Shown here piece by piece: positions 21,855 through 28,229 of a stretch of DNA of 49,453 bases. A program made the position numbers and the translations under genes. Within the stretch, counting starts at the first letter, position 1. Each line of letters begins with the position of its first letter. Under the pieces are notes generated by a model. The model saw nothing but the letters and a program-made list of their open reading frames with translations. It did not search any database and was not told where the DNA came from. Source of the stretch: a virus; the IMG/VR virus record IMGVR_UViG_3300005581_000020, positions 1 through 49,453 of that record. One strand, 5' to 3'.

Positions 21855-22133
21855 ATGATATTTCTAATAAAAGTATTTACATATTTAAACTGTAAAGACT
21901 GTTTGCGTCACATACAAACGCTTCGCGAATATTGTGATCGCACCCCAACCCGTCTAGAGATTATTGACGTTGACGTGGAAGAAAATCTACCGCTTATATT
22001 TGAATATAAAATAGCGGGTGTACCTCATACTATATGTTATAACATACGGGGTGAAATTATGTACAGCTTTTTTGGTGTAAAGACACCCGAAGAATTTGAT
22101 GATATTGTCTACTATGGAATAAGCAATCAATAA
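21855..22133 (+). CDS. Thioredoxin/glutaredoxin-like protein
   Basis: 92 aa. Redox pair Cys13 and Cys16 in NCKDC, an Asp/Glu-rich strand (LEIIDVDVEEN) and the cis-Pro motif AGVPHT (Pro57) identify the thioredoxin fold. It may reduce the phage ribonucleotide reductase, as T4 NrdC does; no reductase gene is in the window. Starts 13 nt after the gp32 terminator, which may read through. Its end overlaps the convergent tape-measure gene by 7 nt. Confidence 0.82.
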   Translation: MIFLIKVFTYLNCKDCLRHIQTLREYCDRTPTRLEIIDVDVEENLPLIFEYKIAGVPHTICYNIRGEIMYSFFGVKTPEEFDDIVYYGISNQ

Positions 22134-25100
22134 CCCATTGCGCTACCAGTTACTATTGGCATCATTGGAGCCGCATTGTTATTAACGTTACTGCTGCTGA
22201 CGTTACTCACGTTTCCACCACTATTATTGTTTACTACTATTGTTGGAGAGACGTTGGAAATATTTCCAGCGGTTGCTAACATATTGCCAGTAGTTGGCGG
22301 AATTGTTTGTATATTATCTTTCCCCTTCCACGCAAACTTTGCTTTTTCATATTCATCATATGATTTATAGCCCGCTTCCGCAGCTTTTTCCTCCTTAGAC
22401 ATCTTTGAAAATTTATCTTTCCCCTTCCACGCAAACTTTGCTTTTTCATATTCATCCCATGAACCATAACCAGCTGCCGAAGCTTTTTGCTCATTAGACA
22501 TATTTGAAAAGCTATTTGTTGAAGTGGCCTTTGCGATTTTTTCAATCTTATCAATTGGGAATTCATCTAGCGCCTCAATTTCATCTCCAAGTCCAGCCAA
22601 TGAAGCTATTCCCTTTGATAGATTTAATACGCCTTCGCCCGCAGACTTTAAACTTTCTCCAATAGCCGCAAATTTTTGAAACTGTTCTAGTGGACTATCA
22701 GAACCAAACCTTAATAGTTTTCCAACTAAATTTCCTAATCCTTCGGCAGCTTGAGCGGCGCCAAATCCTGCAATCGCAAGTGCAAGTGCAGTAATGGCCA
22801 CCGCTGAATTATATATTTTTGCTGGATCTAACCCATCTGAAAACAATGTAAATTTTTCAAAGAAATCTCCTAGACCGTCTCCAACTAAAGCAGTTGCTGC
22901 TCCGAGTGCAAGTACACCAAGCGAAAATGGTATTAGAGCGATCCCGCCCAATGCTAAACCAAGAGCGCCCTTAAGTAGCCCCATACCTAACGATGCAATT
23001 GCTGGGCCAAGATTATATAGGGCTTTAGGATCAACCTCACTTATTTTCTTTAATGAGTATGCTAGCGGAATTAATGCTGCTCCAAGTACTGCGATCACCG
23101 CGGCACCAATTAAAGCGAGTCCGGCTACGGCTGGAATTCCTAATGCAACTGCAGCCAGTCCTAATCCGGTGATAGCTGCGGCGACAATACCCAATGTTTC
23201 CCACTTTACTCCTTGAATCATTTTAAGCGAGTATGCAAGTGGAATTAATGCAGCTCCAAGACCAGCAATAACAAGAGCACCAATCGCGGCTGGACCTGCT
23301 ACTGCTGGAATTCCTAATGCAACTGCGGCAAGTCCAAGTCCAGTAATTGCCGTAGCAACTATGCCTAAAGTTTCCCATTTTACTCCTTGAATCATTTTAA
23401 GGGAGTATGCCAATGGGATTATTGATGCACCGAGAGCTGCAATAAGGAGAGTGCCTTTTAAAACCATACCCATATTTTTACCAAGTGCTGATGCAGCAAG
23501 TGCCAATCCGCCAAGGGCCACGCCAGCAATAGTTACACTTTTTAAATCAATATCCTTAAGTAAATTTAGTGAGTAGGCGAGTGGAATTATTGCTGCACTG
23601 AGCGCAGCAATACCAAGAGCACCCTTTAAAACTCCACTAAGATTTTTGCCTAACTTTGTTCCGACCATGGTCAATAACGTAATTGCACCAGCAGCAATTG
23701 CTACACTTTTTAATTCTATTCCTTTAAGCATTTTTAACCCATATGCAAGTGGAATTATTGATGCACTCAGTGCCAATATGCCTAAAGCGCCCTTAATTAA
23801 TGCTCCAGAAACTTTTCCAAGTTTTTCGCCAAAATAACCAATTGAATCGCTAATTAGTTTCATTGGCTTAACAATACCACTCGCTATTTTTTTAATTACA
23901 TCCGTAAATTTTTTAATTATTTCTATAGGCAACTTAGAGAGTGAACCTAAAAATAACTTTAATGCCTTTACTGATAAAAGAGTTTTAACCCATTTTATAT
24001 TTGCAAATGCAGTCAATGACTCGCCAATCTTTTCTAACGGAGACAGGGCGGCAGAAAGCTGTTTTAAATTTTTAGTGGCTTCTGGTGAGGCTGCGCCTTT
24101 AAAAGCTATCATTAGCACCTTACTGAATATTTTAAATTTAACTAAGCCTATCATAGCTCTAGTCAAGTTAATATTTGCAATGCCATCAATAGCTGATGAC
24201 AGCAAATTCAACGGTTTTATTATTCCTTCTATAGTTGATTTGTCAATTCGTATTTTTGAAACTTCGTCAACTAATTTTTGTATACCGCCAACGTAAGATT
24301 TAATAAGCGAAGTCGGTATTGCCTTTAGCATTACCCCTTTTGCTAAATTTTTAAAGTCTGGTAATTGTATATTGCCAACACTAGTACTAGGAGCAGCCTT
24401 TGGTATCTGCCTTAACGTATTGGTACTAGGAGCAGCCTTTGATCTCCGGCTTAACGTATTGGTATTAGTGTTTGACGAGGTATTATTCGCACCTGACGAG
24501 GTATTATTTGCGACTAATGAGGTGTTATTCGCACTTGACGAAGCATTGTTTGCAATTAACGAAGTGTTATTTGAAGTTGGTGAAGCATTGTTTGCAATTA
24601 ACGAAGTGTTAGCAATCGCTGACGATATACTATCTAAGATTGACGACGTATTACTTGTAATAGTCGATGCTATATCACTTAATATTGACGAGGTATTATT
24701 CGCGACTGTTGATGAGGTATTACTTAATATTGTTGACGTATTATTCGCGACTGTTGACGATATACTATCTAAGATTGACGAGGTATTATTCGCAATCGAT
24801 GACGAGGTATCATTTAAGATTGACGAGGTATTATTCGCAATCGATGACGAGGTATCATTTAAGATTGACGAGGTATTATTCGCAATCGATGACGATATAC
24901 TATCTAAGATTGTTGACGTATTATTCGCGACTGTTGACGAGGTATTACTTAATATTGACGAGGTATTATTCGCAATCGATGACGATATACTATCTAAGAT
25001 TGTTGAGGTATTACTTAATATTGATGAGGTATTACTTGTAATCGCTGACGAGGTATCATTTAAGATTGATGAGGTATTACTTGTAATAGTCGATGCTATA

Positions 25101-25627
25101 TCACTTAAGATTGATGACGTATTATTCGCGACTGTTGACGATATACTATCTAAGATTGATGACGTATTATTCGCGACTGTTGACGATATACTATCTAAGA
25201 TTGATGACGTATTATTCGCGACTGTTGACGAGGTATCATTTAAGATTGATGAGGTATTATTTAAGATTGACGATGCCGTATCATTTAAGATTGATGAGGT
25301 ATTATTTAAGATTGACGATGCCGTATCATTTAAGATTGTTGACGTATTATTCGCGGCTGTTGACGAGGTATTATTCGCGACTGTTGACGATGTATTATTT
25401 ACATTTGCTAAATTTAACCTTACTAATGTACTTAATTGTTTCTTTAAATCTGACGCAATATTTAATAGTCTTTCTAAAAAGACCGGAACATCACTAATAT
25501 TTTCTCTCGCAGCAGCTGACGCTAACGTAAAATTATAGTCATCAATTGTATCAAGAATTAGTTCTTGAGACAAATTGGAACTTTGTAATTCTTTTACTAC
25601 CTGTATTAGCGTCGTATTTTCGTTCAT
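22127..25627 (-). CDS. Probable tail tape measure protein
   Basis: 1166 aa. Residues 1-75: helical head. Residues ~76-385: Asn/Ser/Thr-rich repeats of mostly 15 residues (NNTSSILNDTASSIL type). Residues ~430-930: repeated hydrophobic blocks such as ALIPLAYSLKMIQGVKWETL, common in phage tape measures and able to cross membranes. C-terminus: two near-identical copies of a short SWDEYEKAKFAWKGKDK-type repeat (about residues 1055-1110), then an Asn/Gly-rich end. Its place directly after the gp26/gp51 chaperone pair is the usual place of the tape measure. The start overlaps the gp51-frame stop (ATGA). It should set tail length and act in genome delivery. Confidence 0.75.
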   Translation of the reverse strand: MNENTTLIQVVKELQSSNLSQELILDTIDDYNFTLASAAARENISDVPVFLERLLNIASDLKKQLSTLVRLNLANVNNTSSTVANNTSSTAANNTSTILNDTASSILNNTSSILNDTASSILNNTSSILNDTSSTVANNTSSILDSISSTVANNTSSILDSISSTVANNTSSILSDIASTITSNTSSILNDTSSAITSNTSSILSNTSTILDSISSSIANNTSSILSNTSSTVANNTSTILDSISSSIANNTSSILNDTSSSIANNTSSILNDTSSSIANNTSSILDSISSTVANNTSTILSNTSSTVANNTSSILSDIASTITSNTSSILDSISSAIANTSLIANNASPTSNNTSLIANNASSSANNTSLVANNTSSGANNTSSNTNTNTLSRRSKAAPSTNTLRQIPKAAPSTSVGNIQLPDFKNLAKGVMLKAIPTSLIKSYVGGIQKLVDEVSKIRIDKSTIEGIIKPLNLLSSAIDGIANINLTRAMIGLVKFKIFSKVLMIAFKGAASPEATKNLKQLSAALSPLEKIGESLTAFANIKWVKTLLSVKALKLFLGSLSKLPIEIIKKFTDVIKKIASGIVKPMKLISDSIGYFGEKLGKVSGALIKGALGILALSASIIPLAYGLKMLKGIELKSVAIAAGAITLLTMVGTKLGKNLSGVLKGALGIAALSAAIIPLAYSLNLLKDIDLKSVTIAGVALGGLALAASALGKNMGMVLKGTLLIAALGASIIPLAYSLKMIQGVKWETLGIVATAITGLGLAAVALGIPAVAGPAAIGALVIAGLGAALIPLAYSLKMIQGVKWETLGIVAAAITGLGLAAVALGIPAVAGLALIGAAVIAVLGAALIPLAYSLKKISEVDPKALYNLGPAIASLGMGLLKGALGLALGGIALIPFSLGVLALGAATALVGDGLGDFFEKFTLFSDGLDPAKIYNSAVAITALALAIAGFGAAQAAEGLGNLVGKLLRFGSDSPLEQFQKFAAIGESLKSAGEGVLNLSKGIASLAGLGDEIEALDEFPIDKIEKIAKATSTNSFSNMSNEQKASAAGYGSWDEYEKAKFAWKGKDKFSKMSKEEKAAEAGYKSYDEYEKAKFAWKGKDNIQTIPPTTGNMLATAGNISNVSPTIVVNNNSGGNVSNVSSSNVNNNAAPMMPIVTGSAMGY
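24470..25405 (-). repeat. Tandem repeats inside the tape measure gene
   Basis: About 310 codons of degenerate repeats, mostly 15 codons (45 nt), with some 7- or 22-codon steps. On the plus strand the words GACGAGGTATTATTCGC and AAGATTGACGA recur many times. The lack of stop codons in the repeats also leaves long meaningless frames open on the plus strand. Confidence 0.85.
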
Positions 25628-25812
25628 TTTTTATTTTTTGCTTTCGCTTCTTCTTCTTTTATATGATTTATTAATAGCGTAATATAAATCTCCCTCTCCC
25701 ACGGCAACATATTATCCAATTCTGTTAAACTATACTTGTGGTGTTGAAGTAGTGAAAAATTAGTTTGATAATAATTACTTAATGATTCATGTGAGAGGGC
25801 TATTCGAAAAAA
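25624..25812 (-). CDS. gp51: gp51-like extension read by -1 frameshift from gp26
   Basis: After the slippery heptamer at 25806-25812 the -1 frame stays open for 60 codons to TGA at 25624: RIALSHESLSNYYQTNF..., then YSLTELDNMLPWEREIYI and a Lys/Glu-rich end. The frame has no ATG before the one at DNMLPW, so a frameshift from gp26 is the simplest way to make it. T4 gene 51 also lies directly after 26. The motif LPWER.IY resembles the gp51-type or GT-type chaperone ends as I recall them. Its stop overlaps the tape measure start (ATGA). Fusion length about 295 aa. Confidence 0.65.
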   Translation of the reverse strand, partial: FFRIALSHESLSNYYQTNFSLLQHHKYSLTELDNMLPWEREIYITLLINHIKEEEAKAKNKK

Positions 25813-26510
25813 GATTGTATTCCAGAAAGAGTTATATTATTATCTTTTTTACAGCCACTACATTTAAAAGCAACAGGATGTTGAAGTTTAGGAGACTGCG
25901 CGATATATTGTTCTATTTTAGAAAGTTGTGTTCGATTTAAGCTATTAACAAATGTTAATAATTCCTCATGTGACGTTTCATCAGTTCTATAAACTCCAGT
26001 GTCATCAAAAATTGTTTCGATTGACGCAATAATCATATTTGTTATTACATCCATATTAACGTCAGAGTCACTTGCAACTGCAGGCACATCATTTATTTTA
26101 ATAAACTGTAAAATTACGCCTATTTTATCAGTTAGCATAATTTTATTACTTAATTTTTCTTTAGGCCAAACTAATTGTATTTCATCAATGTTTATGGAAA
26201 CTTCATTGTATGTTTCACAATCTTCGCACTTACATTTAATATTACTAATTTCTCCTACGCTTTTTGCTCGTAATTTTAAGAAAATATATTCAAGATCAAA
26301 CGAAGTTAACTGCTCAGTCTTTATAGTATTAAACGTACATACTTGTATAATTTCTTTAATAGCTGAAATCATTTCAGCTGAGTTATTTGATTCTTGTGCA
26401 AGTAGTAGTATCTTTTCTTCTTTTACGAGAAATGGGCGGTATTCAATTGACTGCAACGTTGATGGTACAGTTAATATATATTTTGGCGATTCAAGTGTTG
26501 GTAATGGCAT
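25800..26510 (-). CDS. gp26: gp26-like baseplate hub assembly chaperone
   Basis: 236 aa. RPFLVKEEKILLLAQES near residue 26 is the signature of the T4 gp26 family; two CxC/CxxC pairs (CKCEDCE in the middle, FKCSGCKKD near the end) suggest a zinc site. In T4, gp26 is needed to build the central baseplate hub and is not clearly part of the finished virion. It lies upstream of the tape measure gene, as tail chaperones do in many phages. It ends at TAG one codon after a T TTT TTC heptamer. A late-type box lies 5 nt before the start. Confidence 0.85.
   Translation of the reverse strand: MPLPTLESPKYILTVPSTLQSIEYRPFLVKEEKILLLAQESNNSAEMISAIKEIIQVCTFNTIKTEQLTSFDLEYIFLKLRAKSVGEISNIKCKCEDCETYNEVSINIDEIQLVWPKEKLSNKIMLTDKIGVILQFIKINDVPAVASDSDVNMDVITNMIIASIETIFDDTGVYRTDETSHEELLTFVNSLNRTQLSKIEQYIAQSPKLQHPVAFKCSGCKKDNNITLSGIQSFFE
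25806..25812 (-). other. Candidate -1 ribosomal slippery site
   Basis: T TTT TTC read in the gp26 frame (last T of TCT, then TTT TTC), one codon before the gp26 stop. It fits the X XXY YYZ rule for -1 slippage. Confidence 0.65.
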
Positions 26511-26515
26511 AATGT

Positions 26516-26523
26516 TATTTATT
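26516..26523 (-). promoter_or_regulatory. Late-promoter-like box before gp26
   Basis: AATAAATA on the minus strand, one mismatch to TATAAATA, with 5 nt between it and the gp26 ATG. Spacing is the same as at the exact boxes. Confidence 0.5.
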
Positions 26524-26549
26524 ATATAGTTTTTGTTTTTGTGTTTAGG

Positions 26550-26642
26550 CTAAAGTGATATTGCCTCGGCTGAAACTGTTATCATCAATTGTTGCAGTTT
26601 TAGCTGAGCTTCAAGAGGTTGGTTTAGTTTTAAGTTCGTCAT
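26550..26642 (-). CDS. Possible small peptide (30 aa)
   Basis: ATG at 26642 inside the end of the tube gene, stop at 26550. Helical product beginning MTNLKLNQPLEAQLKLQQLM. It includes a 14-bp imperfect inverted repeat (26565-26578 / 26595-26608). It fills most of the gap between the tube gene and gp26. Reality uncertain. Confidence 0.3.
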   Translation of the reverse strand: MTNLKLNQPLEAQLKLQQLMITVSAEAISL

Positions 26643-27147
26643 ATGTAAATACGACAGTTACTTTCGAGATACTTGATTCGGCGCTGTTATCTAAGTCAAT
26701 TGAACCCACTGAAATGGGATAAGCATTTACTAGTTGTACAGCATAAACTATGCGGTTGTTTTCATCTAGTTGCGCAATTGATATGTCTCGTTTATATTCT
26801 ATATCATACGAGAGTAAATAGGACGCGCTGCTTATTATTTTTTCCATCCAAGCATCTAATGCGGTTTTAACTATATAGTTATTTGTTAGGTTAAAGTTCA
26901 TGGTAACATCATCCTCAGTATATCCTGTTGGTATTTTTAAAGGACGAGCCATACCTATTCTATCATACTCTATAGTGTTAATTTGCTTGCTTGGTATATT
27001 AACAGTTTCACACAAAAAATTTAAATCTTGTGTGTCGATACCACCACTGCCTGGGATGTCAGTAATTTGTATTTGGAACCGGTTTGAACGAGCAAATCCT
27101 CCATTTTTTAAAATGACGTTTTTAAAATCTGTTATTGAAGATGACAT
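26611..27147 (-). CDS. gp19: Tail tube family protein (gp19/gp54-like)
   Basis: 178 aa. GGFARSNRFQIQI, then LDAWMEKII, YKRDISIAQLDENNRIVYAVQL and AYPISVGSIDLD follow the T4 gp19 tube pattern of beta-barrel tube subunits (T4 gp19 is 163 aa). LCETVNIPSKQINTIEYDR is also seen in tube-initiator relatives. Just upstream of the chaperones and tape measure, it may be the major tube protein or a gp54-type initiator; the sheath gene that normally accompanies gp19 is not in the window. The start lies 1 nt from the stop of the gene before it. Confidence 0.75.
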   Translation of the reverse strand: MSSSITDFKNVILKNGGFARSNRFQIQITDIPGSGGIDTQDLNFLCETVNIPSKQINTIEYDRIGMARPLKIPTGYTEDDVTMNFNLTNNYIVKTALDAWMEKIISSASYLLSYDIEYKRDISIAQLDENNRIVYAVQLVNAYPISVGSIDLDNSAESSISKVTVVFTYDELKTKPTS

Positions 27148-27148
27148 A

Positions 27149-27733
27149 TTAGATTAATGTGCGCGTTTTTTGCCAAATTGAAACGTTCTTTTGACCGACA
27201 AAAGAATCTGTTGGTAGAAACAATGCTATTTCCCATTCGTTGGGAAGCACCTCAACTGTTTTAGAGACGATATGTTTATATAAGTAATGCTTAAAACACG
27301 GAGCATATGCCCGTAGTTTTGCAGTGCTGCTTAACATATTGTAAGACAACCTGAATCGTGTAGTCTCGTCTAATTTTTTATTATTCATATTATCCATTAG
27401 ACGATCAAAAAACATTGCGCGTTGACGTGGTGGTAAGTAATGTAAGTTTAGACCATAGAACCCTTTCTCGGCTGGTCCTATCATGAGTATAAGCGGAAAG
27501 CGGTCATAGTATGGCAATGTCTCTTTATGTTTTGGATCATATAAAAACATAAACATGCGGCCAATAAGAGGTCTGCTTCTAACTTCTAGTGAATCATCAT
27601 TTAGTATTCTCGTGGCGGGTATGTTTGTTATACTGCGTATTTTACGCAAGAACCAGTCACGCGACTCTTTAGTGCGCGGCAAAAACCCTGCACGTTCAGC
27701 GTCAGATTGTATCTTTGAAAAAAGAGACGGCAT
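27149..27733 (-). CDS. Conserved T4-like virion protein, possibly gp2-like
   Basis: 194 aa. Core pattern FMFLYDPKHKETLPYYDRFP, LILMIGPAEKGFYGLNLHYL and PCFKHYLYKHIVSKTVEVLP. I recall this pattern from T4-like aquatic phages but not its firm name. In T4, gene 2 (DNA end protector) lies next to gene 4, and here the gene directly follows gp4, so gp2 or a neck protein is a guess from position. Basic, soluble. A perfect late box lies 5 nt before the ATG. Confidence 0.6.
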   Translation of the reverse strand: MPSLFSKIQSDAERAGFLPRTKESRDWFLRKIRSITNIPATRILNDDSLEVRSRPLIGRMFMFLYDPKHKETLPYYDRFPLILMIGPAEKGFYGLNLHYLPPRQRAMFFDRLMDNMNNKKLDETTRFRLSYNMLSSTAKLRAYAPCFKHYLYKHIVSKTVEVLPNEWEIALFLPTDSFVGQKNVSIWQKTRTLI

Positions 27734-27738
27734 ATATC

Positions 27739-27746
27739 TATTTATA
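27739..27746 (-). promoter_or_regulatory. T4-type late promoter box
   Basis: TATAAATA on the minus strand, 5 nt before ATG 27733. Transcription should begin at or next to the start codon. Confidence 0.8.
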
Positions 27747-27752
27747 ATGGTT

Positions 27753-28208
27753 TTATGTCAATAGCTTAATGCCAAGACCTTTAATTACGTCTTCTGTCCA
27801 AATTTCAAATACCCATCCGCGGTCAGCACAATATTCTTTTGCTGCTTCCCACTTTGATATATTTTTAGCATAGGTTAGTACCTCTGTAATATATCTTTTT
27901 GTTTTTATTGCGCGGACAACCGGTTCCTGTGTTTGCTTTTTTGGTTTTATTTCAATAAGATATGTAGTTCCAGTTTTAAATGTTACTTTTAAGTCTACAA
28001 AATATCTATGGCTTTTTCCATCTGACCGGCATCGGTATGGTACAATTGTTTCTTCGCTACTCCAAGATTTGACTGCCTGGTTTTCATCACACCATTTGAA
28101 AACCTGACGTTCCCAAAGTGATCGATACACGACTCCAGACGCGTCACCATCATATTTTTCTCTATGTATTACGCGATATTTACCGCTATAATAATGCTTT
28201 TTTGCCAT
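27753..28208 (-). CDS. gp4: gp4-like head completion protein
   Basis: 151 aa from ATG 28208 (T4 gp4: 150 aa). HYYSGKYRVIHREKYDGD, VYRSLWERQVFKWCDENQ, SEETIVPYRC, SHRYFVDLKV and YLIEIKPKKQT match T4 gp4 nearly block by block, including the PD-(D/E)xK-like Asp and Glu-x-Lys (D in YFVDL, EIK). gp4 is required to finish filled heads before tail joining. Upstream in-frame ATGs would run into the divergent promoter. The start lies within a near-perfect palindrome shared with gp48. Confidence 0.88.
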   Translation of the reverse strand: MAKKHYYSGKYRVIHREKYDGDASGVVYRSLWERQVFKWCDENQAVKSWSSEETIVPYRCRSDGKSHRYFVDLKVTFKTGTTYLIEIKPKKQTQEPVVRAIKTKRYITEVLTYAKNISKWEAAKEYCADRGWVFEIWTEDVIKGLGIKLLT

Positions 28209-28229
28209 ATAAATATACTTATATGGCAA
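28202..28229. promoter_or_regulatory. Palindromic bidirectional late promoter
   Basis: 28-bp near-palindrome (26 of 28 positions symmetric). Plus strand: TATAAATA (28208-28215), 7 nt, ATG of gp48 (28223). Minus strand: TATAAGTA (28223-28216), 7 nt, ATG of gp4 (28208). Both genes begin ATGGCAA, which is part of the symmetry. Confidence 0.8.

Follow-up and report, generated by a model that had tools for sequence, protein, structure and literature searches.

The stretch of DNA analyzed here (the window) comprises all 49,453 nt given for the IMG/VR virus record IMGVR_UViG_3300005581_000020. Within it, a gp26-like gene ends one codon after the heptamer TTTTTTC, and a second reading frame continues in the -1 register up to the start of a long open reading frame (ORF). 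This raises the question as to whether a programmed -1 frameshift joins the two frames and, if so, which features of the RNA might promote the slip and what the two products might do.

Anatomy of the locus

An earlier note on this DNA proposed the frameshift from the letters alone and named no strand; the whole arrangement lies on the minus strand. TAC refers here to the tail assembly chaperone.

26510-25800, minus strand: TAC-N gene, gp26-like, 236 aa (25803..26510 plus stop); recognized by PF12322, phrog_150, an AlphaFold model and similarity to S-PM2
25806..25812, minus strand: slippery heptamer T TTT TTC, in the gp26 frame TC[T TTT TTC] GAA TAG; register kept in relatives
25624..25806, minus strand: -1 frame extension, the TAC-C or "gp51-like" part, 60 codons plus TGA; recognized by phrog_634, the C-terminal end of phrog_150 and tblastn
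25793..25799, minus strand: 5' arm CCCTCTC of a proposed stimulatory stem; RNAfold, alifold and compensatory changes with the 3' arm
25692..25698, minus strand: 3' arm GAGAGGG of the proposed stem, codons GAG AGG GAG of PWEREI; folding and compensatory changes
25818..25825, minus strand: position of a Shine-Dalgarno-like element (GAGGG region in most relatives), here weak, CTGGAATA
22127..25627, minus strand: 1166-aa ORF, probable tape measure protein; position and synteny with an ORF of HTVC008M

The gp26 frame ends in CAA TCT TTT TTC GAA TAG. As the earlier note had described, TTTTTTC (25812-25806) is in phase in this frame, with GAA alone separating it from the TAG at 25802-25800. The -1 frame remains open for 60 sense codons after the two Phe codons (RIALSHES...AKNKK), and its TGA (25626-25624) overlaps the ATG (25627-25625) of the 1166-aa ORF as ATGA. 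We likewise found this frame to be without a usable start, since it is open for just 8 codons 5' of the heptamer and its first ATG, GTG or TTG falls 93 nt 3' of it, within the conserved part of the extension. Because of this late position, the conserved HHKYSLTEL part is out of reach of an ordinary start. A ribosome changing frame at the heptamer is predicted to make a fusion of about 295 aa (...GIQSFF-RIALSHES...KNKK). No separate ATG-started full-length gp51 paralogue was found at this locus, the window being a genome fragment.

With 22 copies versus 18.7 expected, TTTTTTC occurs at an ordinary frequency in this AT-rich window, and 60 stop-free codons in the -1 frame arise in 0.46% of dinucleotide shuffles. 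Since the heptamer alone is unremarkable and the open frame alone has a p of about 0.005, the weight of the evidence lies in comparison with relatives.

The short product and its extension resemble T4-like tail assembly chaperones

The short product belongs to the T4 gp26 family, matching PF12322 at 1.2e-57 and phrog_150 at 5.3e-62. It aligns with T4 gp26 itself at an E-value of 3e-12, and its similarity to other gp26 proteins, for instance that of S-PM2 (40.6%), extends over the full length. An AlphaFold model of the protein has a pLDDT of 92, and a fold search of BFVD returned matches to gp26 proteins. In a Foldseek search of the PDB, the HK97 TAC 2ob9 had the highest probability among the matches listed, and this match is weak (0.25, E 0.95, TMt 0.40); a sequence profile search of the PDB gave no relative.

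The -1 extension has a hit at 3.5e-28 to phrog_634, a family named "baseplate hub assembly catalyst" that represents cyanophage gp51; a further hit, at 5.6e-6, falls on the C-terminal end of phrog_150. A tblastn search with the extension reached 763 phage records (E up to 10), and its length is 57-68 aa in all clusters measured. The locus is best read as encoding the T4-like short and long tail assembly chaperones TAC-N and TAC-NC, whose role in tail assembly would follow by analogy with characterized chaperones.

The slippery site is conserved across relatives

We assembled 412 usable loci from scans of viral contigs, 14 regions of named non-T-even T4-like phages and the window, which together represent 297 distinct sequences or 132 clusters at 85% identity. 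These loci were collected through similarity to the extension protein, a procedure that could select the two Phe residues, but not their codons. TTTTTTN is present in the matching register in 410 of the 412 (TTTTTTC in 368, TTTTTTT in 38 and TTTTTTA in 4), with the two Phe codons sitting exactly 36 codons 5' of a PWE-type motif. The two exceptions are an incomplete contig and HTVC008M, whose run is T8 and whose spacing differs. Every one of the 14 cultured non-T-even T4-like phages examined carries T6-T8 at the junction.

The codon preceding the heptamer ends in T in 132/132 clusters (AGT, AAT, GAT, TCT, GCT and others), an invariance that holds although Asn, Asp and Ser have alternative codons. 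The earlier note had suggested alignment of the -1 frame across relatives as a check, with missing conservation of the heptamer and this frame counting against the shift. Both turned out to be conserved, the extension as protein. Taken together, the heptamer register, the preceding T and the conserved extension strongly support a programmed -1 shift that joins gp26 to its gp51-like extension.

A long-range stem is predicted downstream of the heptamer

RNAfold pairs CCCUCUC (25799-25793) with GAGAGGG (25698-25692) in the window. This stem opens 6 nt after the heptamer, its arms lie 94 nt apart, and the zero-frame stop falls in the spacer between heptamer and stem. The window stem alone is unremarkable, with a z of -2.2 against dinucleotide shuffles (7/200 as good), and the window sequence has a p of 0.067 against synonymous shuffles.

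Substitutions in relatives are compensatory. Among 116 sequences with a window-type stem, the wobble positions of Leu5 and Glu38, which pair with each other, are CTC/GAG in 77, CTT/GAA in 34, G-U in 3 and mismatched in 2. In a phylogeny-aware scan of column pairs, Leu5-Glu38 ranks first of 8515 (pointwise about 6e-6), at an E-value, the best of the whole scan, of just 0.05. The pair of codon 4 and Arg39 ranks ninth (about 2e-4), the wobble position of codon 4 covarying with Arg AGG/AGA in the same 116 sequences. Independent-pairs tests on starred branches gave about 4-5:0, 3:1 and 2:0 changes, with no single stem pair significant. In an alignment of 18 sequences, 94% of cells are paired and 15 double changes are seen versus a shuffled mean of 5.6 (0/500 as high); sliding the stem along this alignment lowers pairing to 41-70%.

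Codon choice in the two arms is also skewed. Leu5 is CTY in 115/117 sequences, although TTR and CTA predominate at the remaining Leu codons of the region, and Arg39 is AGR in 116/117, compared with CGN in 14/18 of a clade with a local hairpin. Joint substitutions at codon 4 and Glu40 (to Gln) turn a C-G pair of the stem into G-C, and it seems that the RNA structure constrains a conserved protein motif at codons 4 and 40 of the extension. In several loci, codon 4 goes from Ala to Cys or Gly together with Glu40 to Gln, and a G-C stem pair is retained. A search of Rfam with the region gave nothing near any gathering score.

Stems with different partners occur across clades

We compared the 119 nt 3' of the heptamer with each cluster's own synonymous-codon shuffles. 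Across 132 clusters the mean z is -1.78, versus -0.58 and -0.44 in upstream control stretches (paired Wilcoxon, 3e-11), and 55% of clusters reach p<=0.05 downstream versus 12-14% in the upstream controls. A helix of 5 bp or more opens at +4 to +14 in 109 of these clusters, chiefly at +6 to +8, and pairing over all 132 is raised at +7 to +16 and depleted at +5. With a stem from +7, the downstream structure lies at a spacing of 5-9 nt.

The pairing partners differ between clades. At one extreme are local hairpins whose loops measure about 9 nt, at the other the long-range stem closing about 94 nt. P-SSM2 and S-SKS1 have an 11-bp hairpin, S-PM2 a 14-bp hairpin and S-CRM01 a 7-bp hairpin; P-RSM6 has the stem GCGUUAAUGC/GCAUUAAUGC, and Melnitz and BUCT-ZZ01 share the window-type stem. 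For the P-SSM2-type hairpin, 94% of cells are paired in 81 sequences, versus 25-45% when the hairpin is slid, and one of its pairs occurs as U-A, A-U and G-C. RNAalifold returned no structure for the mixed clades (xMA, xF, xM) despite the strong P-SSM2-type hairpin there, and pairing in these clades was assessed by direct count instead. The stem is not universal, a clear one being absent in 23/132 clusters, mainly of the "xF" clade. That clade retains the heptamer, yet mostly has no clear downstream stem.

These observations suggest that an RNA stem after the heptamer probably stimulates the -1 slip. Alternatively, the shift may be real and the CCCTCTC/GAGAGGG stem may serve some other role, for instance in stabilizing the mRNA or in regulating the next gene. 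The stemless clades, and the fact that the stem's function is itself a prediction, leave some room for this explanation. We nevertheless consider it unlikely, given that, whichever partner a clade uses, the stem mostly opens at +6 to +8 from the heptamer, where a -1 stimulator would be expected.

A Shine-Dalgarno-like element precedes the heptamer in most relatives

Upstream of the heptamer, the predicted energy of pairing to the anti-Shine-Dalgarno (aSD) sequence averages -6.6 kcal/mol over clusters, compared with -1.95 kcal/mol in control windows. The best aSD match ends about 7-9 nt 5' of the heptamer, in the GAGGG region, and the Glu codon is GAG in 67% of cases there versus 27% elsewhere. 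Such an element probably helps the slip in most relatives, though it is weak in the window, where the energy is -3.3 kcal/mol.

Proposed mechanism

From sequence comparison, we infer that the gene very probably belongs to a T4-like myovirus and encodes its tail assembly chaperones, with a -1 slip, probably aided by the stem, yielding TAC-NC beside TAC-N. Most ribosomes would terminate at the TAG and release the 236-aa TAC-N. A smaller fraction would, while the two Phe tRNAs occupy TTT TTC, slip one base back to TTT TTT and continue into TAC-NC, which would carry the additional C-terminal domain annotated elsewhere as gp51. The slip would be promoted by the CCCUCUC/GAGAGGG stem opening 6 nt past the heptamer. 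By analogy with lambda gpG/gpGT, the tape measure protein would be covered by many copies of TAC-N, and a few copies of TAC-NC would recruit tail-tube subunits through their C-terminal domain. The ATGA overlap may, in addition, couple translation of the next gene to the shifted ribosomes.

On a broader scale, we lean towards a three-part signal in T4-like phages, with a slippery site and a roughly 6-nt spacing that are nearly fixed, and a stem for which each clade would have evolved its own 3' partners, at the expense of free choice of synonymous codons, and even of amino acids, in the conserved protein encoded there. On this view, the split genes of T4 would be derived and represent an escape from the signal. 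If so, these phages offer a natural experiment, in which one shift seemingly has a different stimulatory stem from clade to clade and, in T4, has given way to gene duplication.

gp51 of T4 corresponds to the whole fusion

The earlier note had drawn on T4, in which genes 26 and 51 are neighbors, and had called the extension gp51-like. The two genes are indeed adjacent; they are transcribed divergently, however, and gp51 is not the extension. T4 gp51 is a protein of 249 aa with its own ATG, and it is homologous to the whole of gp26 plus extension. The fusion aligns with it at 7e-7 over 261 columns (gp51 residues 16-244), and the extension alone at 2e-5. T4 gp26 and gp51 are themselves paralogous (E 1e-5). 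From the homology of gp51 to the entire fusion, it follows that T4 encodes the long form as a separate gene, gene 26 being the short form and gp51 the same N-terminal domain with the C-terminal extension. A related genome with an independent ATG-started gp51 had been expected to speak against the shift. T4 and Aeromonas phage 25 are such genomes, but they do not refute it, because their gp51 is the full long form. Both carry two divergent paralogous genes and no frameshift, unlike the window.

In a tree, the split T4-type genes lie to one side of a moderately supported branch (87/82). Vibrio phage phi-ST2 (Schizotequatrovirus, Straboviridae) has the frameshift arrangement with TTTTTTC, and T4 and Aeromonas phage 25 have split paralogues. 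The Straboviridae would thus include a switch between recoding and gene duplication.

Other ways of expressing or joining the two frames

Another possibility is that the -1 frame constitutes a small gene in its own right (gp51), translated by reinitiation or from its own start codon. Annotations favor this reading in P-RSM6, P-SSM2, S-PM2, S-SM1 and others, where an ATG-started gp51 of about 45-66 codons is placed right after the gp26 stop. Yet 135 of the 297 sequences, the window included, have no ATG, GTG or TTG upstream of the extension or in its first 14 codons, and the annotated starts in Mosig, HTVC008M and BUCT-ZZ01 remove conserved residues. The heptamer, the preceding T and the stem are kept regardless, and T4 has these residues fused in frame with a gp26-like domain. 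We therefore regard an independent gene as very unlikely. Many cyanophage records contain short ORFs named "gp51 / baseplate hub assembly catalyst", and these are probably fragments of the frameshift product annotated in error. Short gp51 genes after gp26 in cyanophage and pelagiphage records resemble such fragments, and one record has an unnamed ORF there.

The T6-T8 run at the junction, with at least seven T in 38 of 410 loci, could also allow the frames to be joined by slippage of RNA polymerase rather than of the ribosome. Transcriptional slippage usually needs longer runs, and most loci have just six T followed by C. The T before the Phe codons, the near-fixed stem spacing and the Shine-Dalgarno-like element are instead features of ribosomal frameshifting, which makes slippage by the polymerase highly improbable. 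A sequencing or assembly error or a decayed gene, which the single reading frame of T4 gp51 might suggest, has a negligible chance of being correct and was rejected, given that the same frame relation recurs in hundreds of independent contigs and many isolates, with both frames conserved as protein.

Relation to known frameshift systems

A programmed ribosomal shift in a chaperone gene of this kind has precedent. The earlier note took the pair to be the T4-like counterpart of lambda G/GT, and T4-like phages have been read in this way in print: the tail assembly chaperones of this group were identified by Vladimirov, Gautam & Davidson (Virology 2022;566:9-15), as cited in PMC12846349 and PMC10885494. 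According to these citing passages, TAC-N genes of T4-like phages contain poly-T slippery sites (PMC12846349), and some T4-like phages have short and long chaperone genes (PMC10885494). The same passages make no mention of an RNA stem, its rewiring between clades or a Shine-Dalgarno-like element. As far as they indicate, the core result, a frameshifted TAC in T4-like phages, is already known, and the stem with clade-specific partners is apparently the new part. The proteins described here are the same TAC-N/TAC-NC, from an uncultured phage with at most about 40% identity to cultured gp26. Our analysis thus extends the published chaperone to an uncultured lineage and makes explicit a recoding signal, with predicted pairs, that is common to about 100 clusters of T4-like sequences.

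The slippery heptamer of lambda G/GT differs from TTTTTTC. Lambda G and G-T likewise form a short/long pair arising from a -1 shift, and we found no sequence relation between them and the present proteins. In lambda, the short part binds the tape measure protein, and the -1 shift has been described as conserved in long-tailed phages "except T4" (PMC5009743). In phage Adele (Vandenendeviridae/Andersonviridae), from a different phage group, a -1 shift is likewise predicted at a conserved poly-T motif, GTTTTT, 5' of the tape measure gene (PMC12846349).

The overall plan is also that of E. coli dnaX, whose signal combines a Shine-Dalgarno-like sequence, a slippery heptamer and a downstream stem. 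The heptamer of dnaX is different; in the present signal, the loop closed by the stem is about 94 nt long, and the pairing partner varies between clades.

The adjacent ORF and its neighborhood

The 1166-aa ORF at 22127..25627 is probably the tape measure protein, as its position and the annotation of the syntenic HTVC008M ORF ("putative tail tape measure") suggest; the ORF itself did not match any PHROG. In 87/127 clusters, the ORF that follows overlaps the -1 stop or lies directly next to it.

The N-terminal third of the 1166-aa ORF contains about 1 kb of degenerate tandem repeat (24384-25400, minus strand), with units of 45 and 21 nt that correspond to 15 and 7 aa of NNTSSIL type. Two more large repeats lie in the same ORF, at 23124-23445 (174 nt) and 22314-22510 (99 nt). 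Repeat number in this probable tape measure protein could alter tail length.

The ORF belongs to a minus-strand block (22127-28229) that comprises the probable tape measure gene, TAC, tail tube, DNA end protector and head closure. The genes flanking this block are on the plus strand, with baseplate tube cap, wedge and tail lysozyme after it.
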